DNA of 64,000 bases from Gammaproteobacteria bacterium HGW-Gammaproteobacteria-3 (GCA_002843155.1 PGZD01000005.1:1-64000), one strand, 5' to 3'; positions 3,290 through 17,989 are shown, counted from the first letter of the stretch. The notes: generated by a model not told the origin, from the sequence alone. Translations and numbers: made by a program.

Positions 3290-3949
3290 TCATTTTACAA
3301 ACCGCTTATACGCAAAATAAGGCAGGGCACACCCGGCTATTACCGAAAATATTAAAATCAGCCAGGTGGCATTATTCCAATCCACCGGATAACTGTCTGC
3401 CCGCACCGGCGCAGTCAAACCCGGAATGCTCGGCAAATCGGCATCGCCACCCCCGACTTTCAATTGCGCCTTCATGCCTTTTTCCATATGCTGCGGCACT
3501 TCACAATGCACCAGATAGGTTTTTTTTTGTGACGGCATGATCAAGGATGCTTTCAACTCCCCCGGCCCATAAAGTTCCAGGTGGAACATGCCATCCGGGT
3601 ACAAATAACCCGGCAAGCCATGAATCATCAACTGATGCCGTATTTTGTCATCATTGACAAAAGTGATATTAATGCGCGAACAGGGCGCGACATTCCATTC
3701 CTGTTGGTCGAAGGCAAACATTTTGCCATTGAAGCGGCGCGCATATTTGTGCCCGGCACGGATGGTGATATCGACATCGCCGACAAGCTTTGGACAATCG
3801 CGCGGCAGACTGTCGTGGTTGACGTTCATGATCATGCCGGTTTGATTCATCATCATGCCGTCGTGATTCATTGCCGCCAGCGACAATCCGGCCGACCCCG
3901 GCAGCAGCCAGCACACGGCCATTACAAATCTCAGGATAGATCGGTTCAT
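3290..3949 (-). CDS. membrane-anchored cupredoxin-domain protein
   Basis: 219-residue exported protein: signal peptide (about 1-26), a short Met/His-rich stretch (residues 27-46) typical of copper-handling proteins, a cupredoxin domain, and a C-terminal membrane helix (about 195-213) ending in basic residues. Probable type-1 copper ligands are H105 (or H110), C149, H154 and M159, in the plastocyanin-like spacing C-x4-H-x4-M. Its start overlaps the stop of the upstream multicopper oxidase by four bases (ATGA), implying translational coupling. It is probably an electron carrier or copper donor to that oxidase at the periplasmic face. Substrate unknown. Confidence 0.8.
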   Translation of the reverse strand: MNRSILRFVMAVCWLLPGSAGLSLAAMNHDGMMMNQTGMIMNVNHDSLPRDCPKLVGDVDITIRAGHKYARRFNGKMFAFDQQEWNVAPCSRINITFVNDDKIRHQLMIHGLPGYLYPDGMFHLELYGPGELKASLIMPSQKKTYLVHCEVPQHMEKGMKAQLKVGGGDADLPSIPGLTAPVRADSYPVDWNNATWLILIFSVIAGCALPYFAYKRFVK

Positions 3950-5601
3950 TGCCGTTGTTTCCGTTGTCCGACACGCACGATAAAAACAATCAAAGCCAGG
4001 GCCAGGCCCACCGATAAACCAAAACCTATGATGCGCAGATAATCCGGCTGCATCTGTCCTGCTTCGCCTAAAACCCCGGCAAAATCGCCCTCGCCCCAGA
4101 CCGCGTGTTTTTTGGCGTAATAATTTTTATTGAAAACCTGATTGAACAGCTCGGTGTGCAGTTTCGGCATTCCCTGGTCATCGAGTAAAGCCTTATAGGC
4201 CAGAATAGCCATGTTGCCGCCGGGTTCCATGCCATCCGTGGTGGTCGCGGTTTCCACATGATCATGCAGCATCCATAGGCCGGGACCATAACTGTGCAGA
4301 CCGTCATTGGCCGTTTGCAAGGCCAGATCGAGGCGTTGCGAGGGTGCGATAGCGAATACATCCCGAGTCAGTTGCAAACCGCCCGGAGCATCCACACCGT
4401 CATAAGCGGTCACGGTGGCTTTGTGGCCGTGAATATGAATGGCCACGGACGAGCGCTGGGTATTGGCGACGCGCAGTTTGATACGCTCATTTTCGGAGGC
4501 GATGATCATGCTATCGCGCAAGGTGTACGGAAAAGAATGGCCGTTGAGCAGAAAGTAGTTTTCAAACGTTTCGGTGATGTTGTATTCACGGTTCATGCGC
4601 CGGGCAATCAGCCTCGGGTCATTGGCGTCCTGGATAATTTGCGCCAGGCGTTTATCGACCGATTGATAGTGCATGTCGTATTCCTGGCTGTAGTCTTGCT
4701 TTACCGCCACGGAAGGATGGCGCACCCGGCCCGCGCCGATATTGAAAGTTTGCACCCAGTTGTCGGGGCGGTTTTCCTCGACTACAAACAGGCCCTGCAA
4801 ACCCATCATAATGTGTTGCGCGGTTTGCACATGGCAATGGTAGAGCATGGTGCCCGCGTGCCTGGGCTGAATTTCGTAGGTATGGCTTTGGCCGGGCATG
4901 ACCGCGTGTTCTTCGGCGCCGTCATTGTCAAGCCCCGCCGCCGTCATCCAGGGATGATCGACGCCGTGCAGATGCAGCGTATGCGGCAAATAATGCGTGT
5001 TTTCCAGCGTGATATAGACTTTATCCCCTTGCTCCACCCGGATCACCGGCGAAGGCGCGCGCAGTAAAGGATTGGCTTCAGCGGAATTGAAGTTTTTCAG
5101 CGCCATGCCGCGCGATTTCGGGGCGTACACCCACAATCCCGGCTGTATGCCCGGCGCGATAGTAAACGTGTTGATCAAAAACTCACCGTCCGGAGTCGCG
5201 CCGTTCAGTTCAATGACTTCGAGTTTGATGCGAATGACGTCCGGATCGCCGTCGCCGTCGAGATCATTTTCCTTGATCAGCGCGTCTTCGGCCCAATGCG
5301 TCTGCATCAGCGTGTGCATCGAAATATTATTGACGCCCTTGACCGAGGCGGCAATGTCATACGGGTTATCCGGTTCGCAGGCCAGCGACTCTTCGATAGC
5401 CACAGCGTCGATTTGTTGCGCCTTGCGCCACTCGGGATGATCGTTTGGGCAGGGGTTTTCGACGCCGCCCAGCGCCTCGCCATGCTGCGTGGATGGTGGC
5501 TCGATACCGGCCTTTTGAGTAAATTCAGTCGCCAACGGCGAAACGGCCAAAGCGGACAGCGGAATAAGCAAGCTCGACAACATCAGAAAGGCTTTGTTCA
5601 T
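3946..5601 (-). CDS. two-domain multicopper oxidase with C-terminal anchor
   Basis: 551 residues with signal peptide (about 1-19) and a C-terminal membrane helix followed by RVGQRKQRQ. All four His pairs of the trinuclear centre are present: HLH (210-212), HCH (255-257), HIH in the second cupredoxin domain, and HDH near residue 450. The only Cys of a type-1 site is C256 in domain 1; the matching second-domain motif is HDHVE without Cys, so type-1 copper should sit in domain 1 only. The spacing after C256 (His at +7, Met at +9/+10) is unusual. A DLDGDGDPD calcium-type loop occurs at 113-121. Likely copper oxidation or resistance with the coupled cupredoxin downstream. Precise substrate unknown. 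Confidence 0.85.
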   Translation of the reverse strand: MNKAFLMLSSLLIPLSALAVSPLATEFTQKAGIEPPSTQHGEALGGVENPCPNDHPEWRKAQQIDAVAIEESLACEPDNPYDIAASVKGVNNISMHTLMQTHWAEDALIKENDLDGDGDPDVIRIKLEVIELNGATPDGEFLINTFTIAPGIQPGLWVYAPKSRGMALKNFNSAEANPLLRAPSPVIRVEQGDKVYITLENTHYLPHTLHLHGVDHPWMTAAGLDNDGAEEHAVMPGQSHTYEIQPRHAGTMLYHCHVQTAQHIMMGLQGLFVVEENRPDNWVQTFNIGAGRVRHPSVAVKQDYSQEYDMHYQSVDKRLAQIIQDANDPRLIARRMNREYNITETFENYFLLNGHSFPYTLRDSMIIASENERIKLRVANTQRSSVAIHIHGHKATVTAYDGVDAPGGLQLTRDVFAIAPSQRLDLALQTANDGLHSYGPGLWMLHDHVETATTTDGMEPGGNMAILAYKALLDDQGMPKLHTELFNQVFNKNYYAKKHAVWGEGDFAGVLGEAGQMQPDYLRIIGFGLSVGLALALIVFIVRVGQRKQRQ

Positions 5602-6832: not shown

Positions 6833-8728
6833 TCAAGTAGCCAGGCCGCCTTGATTGACATTTTTTCCGGGTGCGCCGGGGTCTTCCGGTTTGGTTTCCG
6901 GTGCCGCTGTGACTTCAGGTTCGGGTTCCGGCGGGGCTATTTTGCCGCCGTTCATTAACACATCGATCTGGTGCTTATCGATCGTTTCCCATTGCATCAG
7001 GGCATCGGCCATGTTGTGCAAAATATCCATACGTTCGGTCAGAATGGCCCGCGCTTTTTCATAGTTGCTATTTACCAGGTTACGAATTTCTTCATCGATC
7101 AACTGTGCCATTTGTTCCGACATGGCTTTGGCTTGCGGGCCAAAATAGCCCTGATTTTGACTTTCGCCATAATCCATTGGCCCTAAGCGATCCGAAAGCC
7201 CCCATTTGGTAACCATATTTCTCGCCAACTGAGTCGCTCGCTCGATGTCATTCGAAGCACCCGTGGTGACTTTGTTTTTACCGTAGATGATTTCTTCGGC
7301 AATCCGGCCACCGAATAAACTGGCAATCTGGCTTTCGAGTTTGTCACGGCTGGCGCTGTAGGTATCGCGCTCGGGCAGGAACATGGTGATCCCCAAAGCG
7401 CCGCCTCGGGGCATGATGCTGACCTTATAGACCGGGTCGTGTTCAGGTACAATCCGTCCGACAATCGCGTGTCCGGCTTCGTGATAAGCCGTCATCAATT
7501 TATCTTCTTCGCGCATCATCATGCTGCGCCGTTCCGCGCCCATGATCATTTTGTCGCGCGCTTTATCCAGATCGTCCATATTGACTTCGCGTTTGTTTTT
7601 ACGCGCCGCTAACAAAGCCGCTTCATTGATCAAATTGGCGAGATCCGCGCCGGAAAAACCCGGCGTGCCGCGCGCCAGATCTTTAATGCTGATATCTTTG
7701 GCTTGAGGAACTTTTTTAATATGGACATTCAGTATTTGCTCCCGGCCTTTGATATCGGGCAAGCTCACCGTAACCTGACGATCAAAACGTCCCGGCCGCA
7801 GCAGCGCCTTATCGAGCACGTCGGCCCGGTTAGTCGCAGCGATCACGATAATCCCTTCATTGCCGGCAAAACCATCCATTTCAACCAGTAACTGGTTTAG
7901 GGTTTGTTCGCGCTCGTCATTGCCGCCGCCGCCCATGCCGGTACCCCGATGGCGGCCGACTGCATCAATTTCATCGATGAAAATAATGCACGGGGCGCGT
8001 TTTTTGGCCTGTTCAAACATATCCCGCACCCGCGAGGCGCCGACACCGACAAACATTTCAACGAAATCGGAACCGGAAATGGAGAAAAAAGGCACGCCCG
8101 CTTCACCCGCGATGGCGCGCGCCAATAAGGTCTTACCGGTTCCGGGAGGGCCTACCATCAAGACACCGCGAGGAATCTGACCGCCTAAAAACTCATATTT
8201 TGCGGGATCTTTTAAAAAATCGACCATTTCCACAACATCTTCCTTGGCTTCCTCAACACCGGCGACATCGGCGAATTTGACTTTGATCTGATTTTCTTCC
8301 ATCAACTTGGCTTTGCTTTTACCGAAATTCATTTGGCCACCGGCCCCACCTTGCTGTTTGCGGAAAAAGTAAACCCATACCGCAATCAGCAACAACATCG
8401 GCGCCCAGGAAATAAAAATCTGCATCAGCATGGATTGCTTTTGCGGGGTCGTCACTTTGATTTTGACGTTATTCGCCAAAAGCTCGTCTATCATTTTGGA
8501 GTCATTGGGATTGTAGGTGACAAAACGCTCGCCATTACGCCTGCGCCCTTGCACTTCATTACCGTCGATGATGACCTCAGCTATCGCGCCACCGCGAATA
8601 TCCTCGATAAAATCCGAATATGACAGCGAATAATTACTGTCATTTTGCGGATTCATACGGGAAAATGCCGAAAACAGAGCCAAACCTACAACAATCCAGA
8701 TGACAAATTTAAGTACATTGGATTTCAT
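6833..8728 (-). CDS. ftsH: ATP-dependent zinc metalloprotease FtsH
   Basis: 631 residues, close to the usual 640. Two N-terminal membrane helices (about 5-22 and 105-123) flank a short periplasmic domain. The AAA ATPase has Walker A GPPGTGKT, Walker B IIFIDEID and the second region of homology [21 protein letters not shown]. The protease carries HEAGH and the later Glu/Asp zinc ligand region. It degrades membrane proteins and short-lived regulators at the inner membrane as a hexamer. A good AAGGAG precedes the ATG. It is monocistronic here, without the usual rlmE or folP neighbours, so it may be a second copy. Confidence 0.97.
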
Positions 8729-8973
8729 AAAAACTTCTCCTTAATCTCATGGATACACGAGCCTAACATTATTTCTTCGAACAATATCTGAAGAAAACTG
8801 ATTTCGCTTCTTAAAGCATCGTGTCATGGGTATTTCCAAAACAAGCCGGGCAACACCTGACTTCTGATGAAAACGTAAAATCTTGCTCTTTTAACCGACC
8901 GAAGCTGAACTTAAGATACCGGTTTTTTGAGTTTTGGCAAATCAACAAAATCTGTTTGTTCATTGCTGCCCTT

Positions 8974-10449
8974 TCAACCGGGCTCTAAAAAATCAGTCAA
9001 TTCGCCGCTGAAGTTGTTTTTTAATTTCATCAGCGCACTGTTTTGAATTTGTCTGACCCGCTCCCGGGTCAGAGACATTTTGTCGGCAATATCCTGTAAC
9101 GTCATTTCATGATCGTTGTCCAGACCGAACCGGCACTTGATAATGCTCGCCTCCCTTTCCGGCAGCGTATCCACGGCTTTGCGCAGACAAGCTTTAAGTG
9201 ATGAACCGATCAAGATATTGAGTGGCTGAGGAAAGTGATTTTGCTCCAGAGTCGTCATCACTTCCGGCAAATCATCGTCATCATTGATGCTGGCATCAAG
9301 CGATATAACCGGTTGATAGTTGGCCACGATGGCTTTAACTTCTTCCTCGGGCAACTTGCACAGCGCGGCAAGTTCACGGCTACTGGGCCATTTATTATTC
9401 TGTATCAGGTAGTTATTCATTATTTCGAATACCGCCGACGCTTTTGCCGCTATGTTGTAAGGCAAGCGCACCATTTTTTCCTGCCTTACCAGCGATCTGG
9501 AAATGGTTTGTCTGATCCAGTAAATGGCGTATGTTGAAAAACGTACTGCCCGGTTCAAATCATACCGGTCAACCGCCTTGATCAAGCCGATGGTTCCGTC
9601 CTGAATCAGATCGGCAAAAGGTGTCGTCTGATTGTTATATTGCTTAGCGATATAGGTCACCAGTCGGACATTACCGTTTATCATAGCTAGACGGGAAATG
9701 CTCATGCGTTGCTCTTGCTCCTGAACTCTGCGCAACCAGTATGAATCTTCACTTTTTAACGGCTGATTGCGGCCAAGCTTTGCGAGTGTTGCTGTAATTT
9801 GTTGCAAAAAATTCGGCAAAAAATGAATTTCAGACAAATACTCACGTATTTTCAGCATGTTAGCAGTATCTTTAAGGTCTTCAGGACGATTCATTATCTG
9901 CTCAAAGCAATCCCTTAGTTTGAATTCAAGCTGTTTAGCCGTATCCTGTACAAAATGGTCATTTTGTACAGGTACGAGGCTGTCGCAATGATTTTTACAG
10001 ATCAGTTCGGAAATATCGCTGCCTGTCGCCAGGGCGTTCATAAAAACGTCTGCCAAAACCCAAAGGCCGTAGCTTGAATCAAGCAAGAGTCGCACCAGAT
10101 TGCCTCTGGCAAGCTCCATTTTTCGGGCCTCCAAGCTAAAGTTCTCATTACTCAGCACGGGAGCATTCTGATTCAAGCCGCGCAGATCATCCAGTGGTGA
10201 TGGCACGACCGCCGCCTCAGTCGCACCGGCAGCAATATCACTCGCGAGGTCATCGTCTCTTGGAGGCTCATCCGCTTGGCTGCAACCGGCATCAGCACTG
10301 GTTTTTCGCTTGAGCTTGAGAGCAATCTGCTCGCGCAGAATAGACCTTGAACGGAGTAAAACAGAGCTTTTGCCGGTTTCTGAAAAAGTGCCCGAAACAG
10401 TATCGGAATCGGAGTTGAATTGATGCGGATAAAGAAAGGCTTGAGTCAT
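8974..10449 (-). CDS. sigma-70 family RNA polymerase sigma factor (alternative)
   Basis: 491 residues. The first about 190 residues are variable and hydrophilic. Region 2 contains LIQDGTIGLIKAVDRYDLNRAVRFSTYAIYWIRQ in short blocks, region 3 is weaker, and region 4 ends with TLQDIADKMSLTRERVRQIQ. The core-binding and -10 recognition parts are well kept, so it should be active. It lacks the acidic region and large insert of the housekeeping RpoD encoded at 38.3-40.1 kb, so it is an alternative group 2-like factor. It is divergent from a CarH/LitR-type B12-dependent repressor with a 126-bp shared spacer, which suggests light- or cobalamin-controlled expression. A perfect inverted repeat with two TGTACA boxes lies inside the coding sequence. 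Confidence 0.87.
   Translation of the reverse strand: MTQAFLYPHQFNSDSDTVSGTFSETGKSSVLLRSRSILREQIALKLKRKTSADAGCSQADEPPRDDDLASDIAAGATEAAVVPSPLDDLRGLNQNAPVLSNENFSLEARKMELARGNLVRLLLDSSYGLWVLADVFMNALATGSDISELICKNHCDSLVPVQNDHFVQDTAKQLEFKLRDCFEQIMNRPEDLKDTANMLKIREYLSEIHFLPNFLQQITATLAKLGRNQPLKSEDSYWLRRVQEQEQRMSISRLAMINGNVRLVTYIAKQYNNQTTPFADLIQDGTIGLIKAVDRYDLNRAVRFSTYAIYWIRQTISRSLVRQEKMVRLPYNIAAKASAVFEIMNNYLIQNNKWPSSRELAALCKLPEEEVKAIVANYQPVISLDASINDDDDLPEVMTTLEQNHFPQPLNILIGSSLKACLRKAVDTLPEREASIIKCRFGLDNDHEMTLQDIADKMSLTRERVRQIQNSALMKLKNNFSGELTDFLEPG
9945..9972. promoter_or_regulatory. 28-bp perfect inverted repeat inside the sigma gene
   Basis: Arms CCTGTACAAAATG (9945-9957) and CATTTTGTACAGG (9960-9972) are perfect complements separated by two bases. 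Each arm contains TGTACA, the same hexamer found three times in the adjacent divergon spacer. It could be an internal operator for the neighbouring MerR-type regulator or an mRNA hairpin. No binding has been shown. Confidence 0.45.
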
Positions 10450-10469
10450 AGCGTATGGCCTCTGGTCAG

Positions 10470-10485
10470 GTATCTGTACAGATAC
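10470..10485. promoter_or_regulatory. 16-bp palindrome, candidate CarH/LitR operator
   Basis: GTATCTGTACAGATAC is a perfect palindrome lying 20 bases upstream of the sigma gene start and centred on TGTACA. MerR-type B12 photoreceptors bind TGTACA-like repeats near the promoters they repress, so this is the natural operator candidate for the sigma gene. Inferred from position and symmetry only. Confidence 0.5.
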
Positions 10486-10528
10486 TTTATTGTTTATCTA
10501 AATGAACGCTTGGATTTAAAATTACTCC

Positions 10529-10582
10529 TTTGTACAATATTTGTCAAATATTATCCTATACAAATTTTAAACATAATGTACA
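10529..10582. promoter_or_regulatory. AT-rich divergon spacer with TGTACA boxes
   Basis: Contains TTGTACAA (10530-10537), an overlapping inverted repeat AATATTT-GTC-AAATATT (10536-10552), TATACAA at about 10557, and a TGTACA that includes the start codon region of the MerR-type regulator (10577-10582). This arrangement suggests autoregulation of the regulator as well as control of the sigma factor. Exact -35 and -10 boxes are not clear. Confidence 0.45.
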
Positions 10583-11478
10583 CCATCAAAACCGTTACTG
10601 CTCTCACCGGCATCAGCACCGAAACATTGCGCGCCTGGGAAAGACGATATCACACGATTACTCCCGTTCGGGACGACAAAGGCCGGAGGCTGTATTCCCA
10701 GGAAGATGTCGAACGCTTGAACCTGCTTGCCAGCGCCATCCGACAAGGCTTCACTATCAGCAAAATTGCGAAATTGAACAGGGCCGAACTGCAAAAGCTT
10801 GTTTCCACGCATGAAACGGCAAACGTAAATAATCATGAACGCTATTTCGTGCAATTTCTCGATGCTCTAAAGGAATATCAAATGCAGCGCTGTGAAGAGC
10901 TGTTAAAACACGCTTTGATCGCCATGGACCCGCTCAGCTATGCACGGGATATTTTGCTGCCCTTGCTGCATAAGGTCGGCGACTTATGGCACCAGGGCGA
11001 AATTACTATTGCTCAGGAACATTTATTTTCCGCCTGTGTCAAACGCATCGTACTCAGCATGGTCAATAATATGCAGCCTTTCTCCGGTTCCAAACCCGGC
11101 ATCCTGTTTGCCACTCTGAGCGGAGAAAGCCATGAGTTCGGCATTTTGCTGACGTGCCTACTGGCCGCCAGTCAAAACTGTAGCTGCTTCTATATCGGCC
11201 CTGACCTCCCGTGGACCGATCTGCATCATGCCAGCGACAAGCTTAAACCCGCAGTCATAACGCTTAGCGCCGTATATACTCCGCCTTCGTCCTTTTTACT
11301 TGAAAATCTGGCGCAATTGGCGCATGAAACCCCGCACAGCATCCAACTTTGGATAGGAGGACCCGGCGCCCTGTATTTACAAGAGCAGCAGCGCTTACCT
11401 GAGCGTTACCAGTATCTTGTGTCACTGGACGATTTCTATAACAAACTGGCGGCACTCATTGTTCGCGGCCAAGCCTGA
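10576..11478 (+). CDS. CarH/LitR-type B12-binding MerR transcriptional regulator
   Basis: 300 residues from ATG 10576, where the MerR winged helix begins (MYTIKTVTALTGISTETLRAWERRY in parts). The frame extends upstream but only through the promoter region. The C-terminal half is a cobalamin-binding module: the cap motif W138-x9-E148-H149 that provides the upper ligand in CarH, the lower-ligand motif E184-S-H186-E-F-G189 (ExHxxG), and the GG loop (WIGGPG). Family members bind adenosylcobalamin as tetrameric repressors and release DNA when light breaks the Co-C bond. The divergent sigma factor is the likely target. The photochemical residues are present, but light dependence is inferred. Confidence 0.87.
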   Translation: MYTIKTVTALTGISTETLRAWERRYHTITPVRDDKGRRLYSQEDVERLNLLASAIRQGFTISKIAKLNRAELQKLVSTHETANVNNHERYFVQFLDALKEYQMQRCEELLKHALIAMDPLSYARDILLPLLHKVGDLWHQGEITIAQEHLFSACVKRIVLSMVNNMQPFSGSKPGILFATLSGESHEFGILLTCLLAASQNCSCFYIGPDLPWTDLHHASDKLKPAVITLSAVYTPPSSFLLENLAQLAHETPHSIQLWIGGPGALYLQEQQRLPERYQYLVSLDDFYNKLAALIVRGQA

Positions 11479-14872: not shown

Positions 14873-17800
14873 TTAATCCTTGATGATAAGTTGTTTTTTA
14901 CACCACAAAAAATACAGCACCGGCAGCACCAGCATCGATACCAGCGGCGCGCTGAACATACCGCCTATCATCGGCGCGGCAATGCGCTGCATGGCCTCCG
15001 AACCCGTGCCGCCACCAAGTAGAATCGGCAACAAGCCTAGGATAATGACAGCGGCGGTCATGGCTTTTGGCCGCACACGCAACACGGCGCCCCTGATGAC
15101 GGCACGGCGCAATTCTGCTTCGGTTTCGGGCGCGGCACTGTGCACGGCCTGGCGTAAATAAATGATCATGATCACGCCAAATTCGGCCGCGACCCCGGCC
15201 AAAGCAATAAAACCCACCAGCACCGCAACCGACAGGTGATAATCCAGCAACCACAACAGCCAGACACCGCCGATCAATGCCAACGGCAGCATCGCCATTA
15301 CCATCAGCGCTTCCATCAAAGTTTGAAAACACAAATACAGCAATATCATAATCACCAGCACTGTCATCGGAATGATAGTCAACATTTTTTCCTGCATTCG
15401 CGCCATCGCTTCATATTGACCCGACCAAGTCAGGGTATAGCCTGCCGGTAACGGCACTTGTTCCTGTAATGCCGCTGTTGCGGCCTTGACATAAGAACCG
15501 GGATCACCGCCATCGGTGCTGATGTACACCCAGCCATTGAGGCGGGCGTTTTCACTTTTAATCATCGGCGGACCTTTGGCTGTCCGTACTTCGGCAATAT
15601 CCTGCAATTGAATGAAGGTATCCTCGGTCGCTACGATCGGCAGCTCTTTCAGTTTGGCAATCGAATCCCGCAAATCTCTTGGGTAGCGCAAATTGATCGG
15701 ATAGCGTTCGCGGCCTTCCACGATATAGGTGACATCTTCCCCGCCTATGGCGATACTGGCCGCCTCTTCCACTTCGGCGATACTCAATCCGAAATGCGCG
15801 GTGGCGAAACGGTCAATCTCAATGTCAATATAGCGGGCATCGGCGACACGCTCTGAATACACCGATTGAGTTCCCTCGATAGTCTGTAAAGCCGTCTCGA
15901 TGCGCCGCCCGAGTTGCTCGATGCCTTCAATCGAAGGGCCTGAGAGCTTAATTCCAAGCGCCGTGTTGATGCCGGTCGATTGCATATCGATACGCGCCCT
16001 GATCGGCATCAGCCAGGCACCGCGCACGCCTGGAATCTGCAATCTCGCATCCAGCTCCTGCTTTATTTTGGCCAATGTCATGCCTGGTCGCCATTGCGCT
16101 TCAGGCTTGAGTTTGACCAGCGTTTCCAGCATCGTCAAAGGCGCGGGGTCGGTTGCGCTATCTGCGCGCCCGGCCTTGCCGAACACCCGTTCGACTTCCG
16201 GCTGCGTCTTGATTAAACGGTCGGTCTGCTGAAGCAATTGCCGGGCCTTGCCGATGGCAATGCCCGGTAGCGTGATCGGCATATACAACAAATCGCCTTC
16301 ATTCATTTCCGGCATGAATTCGCTACCCAAACGGGCCAACGGCCATGCTGCCGAAACCAGTAACAGCGCCACGATAATGAGCGTCGCTCCAGGCCGTTGC
16401 AAAACCCGCGCAAGCACAGGCCGGTAAGTCTGAATCATGCGTCGGTTCAATGGACTGGCCGCCTCTCCGGCAATGCCCCCTTTTATGAAATAAGCCATCA
16501 AGGCCGGCACCAAGGTCACCGACAAACCTGCCGCCGCCGCCATGGCATAGGTTTTGGTAAACGCCAGCGGCGTAAATAATTTGGCCTCCTGCCCTTCCAT
16601 GGCCAGAATCGGCAAAAAACTCAAGGCGATGATCAACAACGAAAAAAACAGCGGCGCACCGACTTCCGCAGCGGCATTCTGTATTACCTGTAGACGGCCG
16701 CATCCATCCTGAGCCGGGCGTTCCAAGTGTTTATGGACATTTTCTATCATCACCACCGCCGCATCCACCATCGCCCCCATCGCAATGGCAATTCCGCCCA
16801 GCGACATGATATTGGCATCGATGCCTTGAAGGCGCATGACAATGAACGCAGTCAAAATGCCGACCGGAAGGCTGACGGCAATAACCAGTGCCGAACGGAA
16901 GTGGTATAAAAACAGCGTGCACACCAAGACCACGACCAGTAATTCTTCCCCCAGGCGCTGGCTGAGCGTTTTGACCGCCCGTTTAATCAAGGTGGCGCGG
17001 TTATAGGTTTCCACCAACTCAACCCCTTGCGGCAGGCTTTGCTTGAGCTTGACAAGCTTGGCCTGGACGGCTTCAATGGTGGCCAGCGCATTGGCTCCCG
17101 AACGCATCACCACAATGCCGCCCACCACTTCGCCGATCCCGTCGAGATCGGCTACACTACGGCGCTGAGCGGGCCCTAAATGAATGCTTCGGGCAATGTC
17201 ATCGAGCAGCACCGATGAAATGGACAGGCGCCGTTTCAAAGTCGGCACACTGATCAGACCGACATCGTCGATACTTTTTATATAGCCTTGCAAGCGCACC
17301 GGGTACTCGGCCTCGGCCAATTCCAGCACCGAACCGCCGGCATCGGCATTGGCTTCAGCAATGGCGCGGCGGACATTAGCCAAAGTCAGATAATAGCCGC
17401 GCAATTTATCCGGATCGATTTCCACCTGATATTGCTTGACCATACCGCCAAAGCTCGCGACTTCGGCGACACCGGGTACGGTTTGTAATTCATATTTCAG
17501 AAACCAGTCCTGCAAACTTTTCAATTTGGCCAGATCATGGCTTTGAGAACGGTCAACCAAGGCATACTCATAAATCCAACCCAAACCGGTGGCATCGGGT
17601 CCCAATTTCGGCCTGGCGCCTGTCGGCAACTGTCCTGCGATCTGACTCAAATATTCCAGAACACGCGCACGCGCCCAATATAAATCGGTGCCGTCGGCAA
17701 ATATCACATACACATAAGAATCACCGAAAAACGAATAGCCTCTGACTGAAGTCGCACCCGGTACCGACTGCATCGCGGTCGATAGCGGGTAGGTTATCTG

Positions 17801-17989
17801 ATCTTCGACAATTTGCGGCGACTGGCCGTTATAAGACGTGCGAATCACCACCTGCACATCGGATAAATCGGGCAAGGCATCCAGCGGCAGCGTTGTCGCC
17901 GAATAAATTCCCCAAAGGCTTAACAGCATTGCCACCAGCAACACCAGCAAACGATGACGGATGGATGCACGAATCAGTGCGGCAATCAT
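14873..17989 (-). CDS. cusA: CusA-family heavy-metal RND efflux pump
   Basis: 1038 residues, matching the CusA/CzcA length, with twelve predicted membrane helices and two large periplasmic loops. It contains the family blocks MGAMVDAAVVMIENVHKHLE, MPEMNEGDLLYMP and RPKAMTAAVI in parts. The porter-domain methionines near TMLETLV and ARIDMQSTGI match two of the three copper-binding Met of E. coli CusA; by memory alignment the third (near ARQLLQQ) is Leu. Proton-driven export of Cu(I)/Ag(I) is the likely function. The adaptor gene lies ten bases upstream. No outer-membrane channel (cusC) gene is present nearby. Confidence 0.93.
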   Translation of the reverse strand: MIAALIRASIRHRLLVLLVAMLLSLWGIYSATTLPLDALPDLSDVQVVIRTSYNGQSPQIVEDQITYPLSTAMQSVPGATSVRGYSFFGDSYVYVIFADGTDLYWARARVLEYLSQIAGQLPTGARPKLGPDATGLGWIYEYALVDRSQSHDLAKLKSLQDWFLKYELQTVPGVAEVASFGGMVKQYQVEIDPDKLRGYYLTLANVRRAIAEANADAGGSVLELAEAEYPVRLQGYIKSIDDVGLISVPTLKRRLSISSVLLDDIARSIHLGPAQRRSVADLDGIGEVVGGIVVMRSGANALATIEAVQAKLVKLKQSLPQGVELVETYNRATLIKRAVKTLSQRLGEELLVVVLVCTLFLYHFRSALVIAVSLPVGILTAFIVMRLQGIDANIMSLGGIAIAMGAMVDAAVVMIENVHKHLERPAQDGCGRLQVIQNAAAEVGAPLFFSLLIIALSFLPILAMEGQEAKLFTPLAFTKTYAMAAAAGLSVTLVPALMAYFIKGGIAGEAASPLNRRMIQTYRPVLARVLQRPGATLIIVALLLVSAAWPLARLGSEFMPEMNEGDLLYMPITLPGIAIGKARQLLQQTDRLIKTQPEVERVFGKAGRADSATDPAPLTMLETLVKLKPEAQWRPGMTLAKIKQELDARLQIPGVRGAWLMPIRARIDMQSTGINTALGIKLSGPSIEGIEQLGRRIETALQTIEGTQSVYSERVADARYIDIEIDRFATAHFGLSIAEVEEAASIAIGGEDVTYIVEGRERYPINLRYPRDLRDSIAKLKELPIVATEDTFIQLQDIAEVRTAKGPPMIKSENARLNGWVYISTDGGDPGSYVKAATAALQEQVPLPAGYTLTWSGQYEAMARMQEKMLTIIPMTVLVIMILLYLCFQTLMEALMVMAMLPLALIGGVWLLWLLDYHLSVAVLVGFIALAGVAAEFGVIMIIYLRQAVHSAAPETEAELRRAVIRGAVLRVRPKAMTAAVIILGLLPILLGGGTGSEAMQRIAAPMIGGMFSAPLVSMLVLPVLYFLWCKKQLIIKD

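Follow-up and report, generated by a model that had tools for sequence, protein, structure and literature searches.

What does a B12-dependent photoreceptor of the LitR/CarH family control when the gene diverging from its own encodes a sigma factor that is not of the ECF type? Switches of the CarH/LitR kind have been known chiefly from carotenoid genes and from sigma factors of the ECF type. The question is raised by a stretch of 64,000 nucleotides (the window) from Gammaproteobacteria bacterium HGW-Gammaproteobacteria-3 (GCA_002843155.1, PGZD01000005.1:1-64000), in which two divergent genes were found where an earlier note on this DNA had placed them:

10576 to 11478, plus strand: litR, encoding a 300-aa regulator of the LitR/CarH family with a MerR-type HTH, a four-helix bundle and a Rossmann B12-binding domain.
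8974 to 10449, minus strand: the sigma gene, encoding a 491-aa non-ECF factor of the sigma-70 family with regions 1.2, NCR-like, 2, 3 and 4.

The spacer between them comprises positions 10450-10575 (126 bp) and does not extend to 10582 as the earlier note had it, since litR starts at the ATG at 10576. The TTG at 10420, given as the litR start in the ORF list, is spurious. A scan of genome contigs recovered a LitR orthologue at 30 further methanotroph loci, belonging to Methylotuvimicrobium, Methylomicrobium, Methyloprofundus, Methylicorpusculum, Methylomonas, Methylobacter and other genera (litR of L067 is cut by the contig end), and counts given below over 31 loci refer to these together with the window. 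Our answer, which we consider probable, is that an autoregulated LitR/CarH photoreceptor switch governs a dedicated sigma factor and a membrane-protease operon in gammaproteobacterial methanotrophs. It is built on the proteins, their residues, the predicted promoters, both operators and the order of the operon, all as read from sequence.

The best solved match of LitR is the CarH/LitR protein of T. thermophilus (E about 1e-32). Pfam recognises its MerR_1 domain (E 1e-17), and the recognition helix RxWERRY is present as R19-A-W-E-R-R-Y25. The Rossmann-type B12 domain is below the Pfam cut-off, yet it is confirmed by the predicted fold; the predicted structure (pLDDT 89.6) matches CarH cobalamin-binding domains with Z of 20.3-21.3 and rmsd of 2.3-2.6 Å over 192-198 residues. 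Both cobalamin ligand motifs that had been read in this protein proved to be exact, namely W138-x9-E148-H149 (the Wx9EH motif, in the four-helix bundle) and E184-x-H186-x2-G189. The latter opens a full B12 motif, in which it is followed by 41 residues, S231-A-V233, 27 residues and G261-G262, the published form being D/ExHx2G-x41-SxT/V-x22-27-GG (PMC9304148). In the alignment of methanotroph orthologues W138, E148, H149, H186 and G189 are invariant (25/25). LitR carries the residues for binding and photolysing adenosylcobalamin (AdoCbl), and by analogy we infer that it binds this cofactor.

The 3.13-Mb genome holds no second full-length copy of LitR. The best NCBIfam hit of LitR is the CarH equivalog NF052513, at 142 bits, which lies below the curated cut-off of 400; judged by its motifs and scores LitR is a relative within the CarH family and is not filed as a CarH orthologue. 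Assignment to class II LitR is ruled out by the full Rossmann B12 domain. Moreover, Arg176 of CarH, which forms the Arg176-Asp201 salt bridge of the dimer, is replaced by S185 in LitR and mostly by P in its relatives while D210 is kept, and as this arginine is not conserved the LitR oligomer may differ from the Thermus-type CarH tetramer. Xanthomonadaceae also possess LitR relatives (L073-L090, 33-37%), which keep W-x9-E and the lower His; in those aligned the second His is mostly replaced by Arg and the His132 position is mostly Ala, and they are perhaps not light-switched like CarH.

The same B12-binding residues would equally serve a LitR that chiefly senses the supply of AdoCbl and not light, repressing when the cofactor is plentiful and freeing the sigma-protease operon at B12 shortage. 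Non-light B12 domains, that of methionine synthase for example, are among the fold matches, and a long open frame of the genome matches a MetH-type B12 domain, so that B12 matters to the cell. However, the His132-type ligand is needed for the CarH light response (PMC10442372), and its equivalent H139, the upper ligand of the light state, is found in 23 of the 25 methanotroph rows of the alignment and is lacking in the non-methanotroph relatives examined. In addition, W-x9-EH touches the adenosyl group (PMC9304148). We therefore hold a supply sensor to be unlikely, if still a serious contender, and continue with a photoreceptor that represses.

The predicted signals that such a repressor could act upon lie in the spacer:

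10510 to 10538, plus strand: predicted litR promoter, TTGGAT-N17-TACAAT, found at 31/31 loci with N17 or N18.
10519 to 10547, minus strand: predicted sigma promoter, TTGACA-N17-TAATTT, with TTGACA and TAnnnT at 31/31 loci.
10531 to 10573, no strand assigned: promoter operator of four CarH-type TnnACA boxes, recognised by conservation over 31 loci.

Across the 31 loci the litR promoter consists of a TTGG/CTGG-type -35, 17-18 bp and TAnAAT, and the sigma promoter, which overlaps it, of TTGACA, 17-18 bp and TAnnnT. Both came from comparative conservation; a promoter-consensus scan alone listed neither of them, its output being at background. Likewise a repeat search in the spacer with a 10-bp minimum returned nothing, and the boxes came from the alignment. 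On the minus strand TGTACA (10536-10531) and TTGACA (10547-10542) form an 11-bp tandem, on the plus strand TATACA (10557-10562) and TAAACA (10568-10573) form another, and the two pairs diverge symmetrically from the centre at 10552. CarH proteins recognise TnnACA in direct repeats of 11 bp, placed across -35 or -10 elements (PMC9304148); here the TTGACA of the sigma -35 doubles as a CarH-type box, the next box being 11 bp further. All four boxes are exact in 20/31 loci, and the corresponding count in Markov shuffles was 0/20000. With up to two mismatches allowed, the genome has no match to the four-box pattern other than the one at this locus. The sigma leader also contains a perfect 16-bp palindrome with a TGTACA core (10470-10485, GTATCTGTACAGATAC) that was not seen in related loci. 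No cobalamin riboswitch was found within the window.

The placement of the boxes bears on the sign of control. LitR of Streptomyces is described as promoting litS transcription after light (PMC12705666), activation is common among MerR regulators, and LitR might similarly activate the sigma promoter in light. But the boxes cover the sigma -35 and the litR -10 with a spacer of a normal 17 bp, which is an occlusion layout, and those CarH and class II LitR proteins that have been characterised act as repressors (PMC9304148, PMC9758184). Activation thus appears quite unlikely to us and repression is retained as the more probable sign of control at this locus, although the Streptomyces protein raises litS after light.

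A second predicted operator is situated about 590 bp from the first:

9947 to 9970, no strand assigned: predicted intragenic operator TGTACA-N12-TGTACA, within the sigma gene, where it encodes PVQNDHFVQ.

Footprinting of PmlR2, a LitR protein of Pseudomonas, gave this same sequence, which also agrees with the consensus for PplR1 (PMC9758184). The exact pattern TRTACA-N12-TGTAYA matches the genome at the sigma gene only, and in four of the seven genomes that carry both LitR and the sigma factor (the paired genomes) the exact pattern occurs once per genome, inside sigma. An intact intragenic pair is missing at L051 and L067, and L043 and L047 have degenerate intragenic boxes only. The distance from operator to operator ranges from about 225 to 594 bp across loci with no common helical phase, and so a rigid loop of fixed phase is not supported.

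The codons under this site are VQ-x4-VQ, and VQ is among the few conserved residues of a variable region. These codons could then have been kept for the protein, for example for contact with core polymerase or with a regulator, the match to TGTACA being a by-product. The nucleotides argue otherwise. In 23 aligned sigma genes the boxes fall at the same codons, and the valines at the two box positions are encoded by GTA in 39/39 cases, as against 21% GTA among the Val codons of these genes; other well-filled valine columns reach at most 45% GTA. The base preceding the box is T in 45/46 boxes (every first box and 22/23 second boxes), where the preceding residues differ and are of six or seven kinds. 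When 222 variable columns are ranked by conservation of the third base, the top five (0.96-1.0) all belong to the intragenic site, and the next is at 0.78. Where the residue at a box has changed to Ile, Leu or Ala the DNA mostly still reads TnnACA (TATACA, TTTACA, TGCACA). Moreover, sigma residues 154-166, at the site, form a low-confidence linker in the model (pLDDT <50), and one locus (L050) keeps the DNA site without the sigma domains. As the sigma sequences are related no formal p-value is attached to the site; the pattern of substitutions nevertheless tells that it is conserved as DNA and not as protein, and we regard selection for the protein as very unlikely.

Sites of similar form occur elsewhere. 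TGTACA-N12-TGTACA at L131:5608 and TATACA-N12-TGTATA at L130:6169 are intergenic and lie upstream of LitR-like operons in two genomes of another family; in these both halves have changed together with the symmetry preserved. Many Methylomonas and Methylobacter loci (L052-L071) have TGTACA in hflK, about 2300-2480 bp before the litR start, and some of them have it twice, at a spacing of exactly 54 bp (3 x 18).

The divergent sigma gene accompanies litR at 29/30 of the further loci. In the sole exception, L050, the sigma domains have been lost and the promoter region and both operators are kept upstream of hflK-hflC-ftsH. A short ORF of that locus (L050:4563-5003) has VQ-x4-VQ and the intragenic-type site, and the promoter operator is also retained there. 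Among 61 relatives of the same family and order, the sigma factor was found in 7/7 genomes with this LitR versus 1/54 without it, for which the hypergeometric value of 2e-8 is only indicative because the relatives are not independent; at the cut-off used it was absent from 53/61. Genome G020 contains a sigma-ftsH pair of the same group (L121, 597-3875), and no full-length LitR was found in it. From these comparisons the pairing of litR and sigma is no local accident. That the two are chance neighbours without a regulatory link, for which one could say that a two-gene adjacency in the window alone is weak evidence, is scarcely credible with the pair kept at all but one of the further orthologous loci and with shared promoters and operator at every one. 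The pairing of a repressor of B12-photoreceptor type with a non-ECF sigma-70 factor, from which a light/B12 switch had been suggested, is well supported, with LitR/CarH-type operators kept over both promoters and within the sigma gene.

Pfam finds regions 2, 3 and 4 in the sigma factor, and the domain search and alignments found these regions to be RpoD-like, as they would be in a non-essential sigma of the group 2 type. An ECF factor, having regions 2 and 4 only, is ruled out by the presence of region 3 and of a domain resembling region 1.2-NCR. The protein scores 213.6 bits against RpoD (cut-off 555) and 197.7 bits against RpoS (cut-off 378.7). A tree of 50 rows has one supported group apiece for RpoD, RpoS and RpoH, and the LitR-paired sigmas stand apart from all three; the group of these paired sigmas includes one sigma from a LitR-less genome (G020), and its support as a whole is moderate (89/78). 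Identity with RpoS is excluded by the separate clade and the score below cut-off, and identity with RpoD by these same two features and by a structural match that starts only at about RpoD residue 101. The sigma-70 partner is hence non-ECF, regions 2-4 being present, and the tree places it outside RpoD, RpoS and RpoH.

The sigma model superposes on RpoD 101-613, which covers region 1.2, the non-conserved region and regions 2-4; no match to region 1.1 was found in this superposition. A profile comparison with one RpoD limited the homology to regions 2-4. The long unique N-terminus described in the earlier note holds for the first 86 or so residues, mostly modelled with low confidence, variable and missing from most relatives, but not for residues of about 89-240, which superpose on RpoD region 1.2 and the non-conserved region. 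The residues for recognition of the -35 element (RERVRQ) and the Gln/Ser in the -10 helix are like those of RpoD, and one of the paired region-2 tryptophans is Tyr.

The genes following sigma point to the probable output of the switch. The order litR (divergent) sigma-hflK-hflC-ftsH was found in Methylotuvimicrobium buryatense, Methylomonas koyamae and Methylicorpusculum, and sigma followed by hflK-hflC in most other loci. The hflK and ftsH of this operon are second copies, other ftsH and hflK genes being present elsewhere in those three genomes. In the window two features remain:

6833 to 8728, minus strand: ftsH paralogue, downstream of sigma and co-oriented with it, a dedicated second copy.
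8772 to 8888, minus strand: hflC scar of 39 codons, 44% over 39 aa to HflC 249-287 (E 3e-6).

Here hflK and hflC are gone, and sigma is followed by the C-terminal hflC remnant and then by ftsH; with a gap of 245 bp holding the scar between sigma and ftsH, their co-transcription in the window is not certain. The ftsH of the window shares 84-88% identity with its operon counterparts in the nearest genera and 68% with the other copy of this genome, which is of housekeeping type and located elsewhere. More distant LitR-like genes adjoin ftsH in five relatives (G026, G027, G028, G055 and G060), several of them with a sigma gene, and the link between sensor, sigma factor and FtsH therefore recurs in different gene orders. 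The window also encodes a multicopper oxidase and an AcrB/CusA-type RND pump (3946-5601 and 14873-17989), perhaps for copper handling.

A repressing photoreceptor at this locus would function as follows. In the dark, AdoCbl-loaded LitR would occupy the four-box operator and both litR and the sigma operon would be off. By pure conjecture, LitR would also bind TGTACA-N12-TGTACA inside sigma and so tighten the repression, either through looping of the DNA or by acting as a roadblock. In light the Co-C bond would be broken, H139 would replace the adenosyl group with H186 as the lower ligand, and LitR would leave the DNA; once it is released, housekeeping RNA polymerase could read sigma-(hflK-hflC)-ftsH. 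Equally conjectural are the last steps, in which sigma might redirect polymerase to further promoters and the spare FtsH (with HflKC) might remove photodamaged membrane proteins. AdoCbl binding, photolysis and repression are carried over by analogy from CarH (PMC10442372) and PmlR2 (PMC9758184), and it is likewise by analogy that we infer the gating of the locus by light. A 'global' reach of the switch, as suggested earlier, is unproven, the exact site patterns occurring in the genome at this locus only; no box pairs were found at the photolyase loci of the seven paired genomes. Taken as a whole, a light- and B12-gated RpoD-like sigma factor with a private FtsH-HflKC copy, repressed by LitR through promoter and intragenic operators, may constitute a photodamage response for the methane-oxidising membrane, a reading on which we are evenly divided.

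At this locus the LitR sensor appears to be wired, across many methane-oxidising genera, to an RpoD-like sigma factor outside the ECF type and to an extra FtsH-HflKC protease. No paper combining 'methanotroph' and 'LitR' was found in the literature searched and, as far as that search goes, there is no earlier description of the use of a non-ECF RpoD-like sigma factor, of an FtsH-HflKC operon dedicated to such a system, or of the intragenic operator. Light inhibition of lake methanotrophs has been discussed (PMC12211021), with no known regulator as far as searched, and the litR-sigma locus provides a named candidate. If true, the photodamage response would offer a possible link to the light inhibition of methanotrophy, and the locus points to a light-gated switch for membrane repair. 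The intragenic operator is, in addition, a clean case of a regulatory sequence overriding codon choice.

Among known systems, LitR resembles CarH of Thermus thermophilus and Bacillus megaterium (LitR class I) in its MerR HTH, four-helix bundle and Rossmann B12 domain, and also in Wx9EH, E-x-H-x2-G, the His132 equivalent and the 11-bp TnnACA boxes over promoter elements. It differs in that the predicted target is an RpoD-type sigma factor with a protease operon, whereas CarH controls carotenoid genes, in that its boxes form two diverging tandem pairs where CarH has a single tandem array, and in the extra intragenic operator and the non-conserved Arg176. A sigma factor (ECF) under LitR control has its precedent in the LitR-LitS system of Streptomyces (PMC12705666). 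In S. coelicolor, too, litR lies beside the sigma gene that LitR controls; LitS, however, is an ECF sigma for carotenoid genes, and the factor described here is non-ECF with regions 1.2 to 4. The site bound by PmlR2 and PplR1, class II LitR proteins of Pseudomonas, is identical to the intragenic site, but class II proteins carry only the four-helix half of the B12 domain and no Rossmann part, and PmlR2 takes its signal from a LOV partner protein, while this LitR has the full B12 domain. In lac the auxiliary operator O2 lies within the first structural gene, some hundreds of bp further downstream than the promoter operator. The placement of the intragenic site is similar, with a different repressor family and with looping as a proposal. 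Like RpoD and RpoS the sigma factor has regions 1.2, 2, 3 and 4, and it superposes on RpoD; unlike them it belongs to a separate clade, is without region 1.1, has Tyr for one region-2 tryptophan and is tied to LitR. Finally, ftsH together with hflK-hflC recalls the FtsH-HflKC membrane protease complex, and in contrast to the housekeeping complex it represents a second, dedicated gene set in a LitR-sigma operon.
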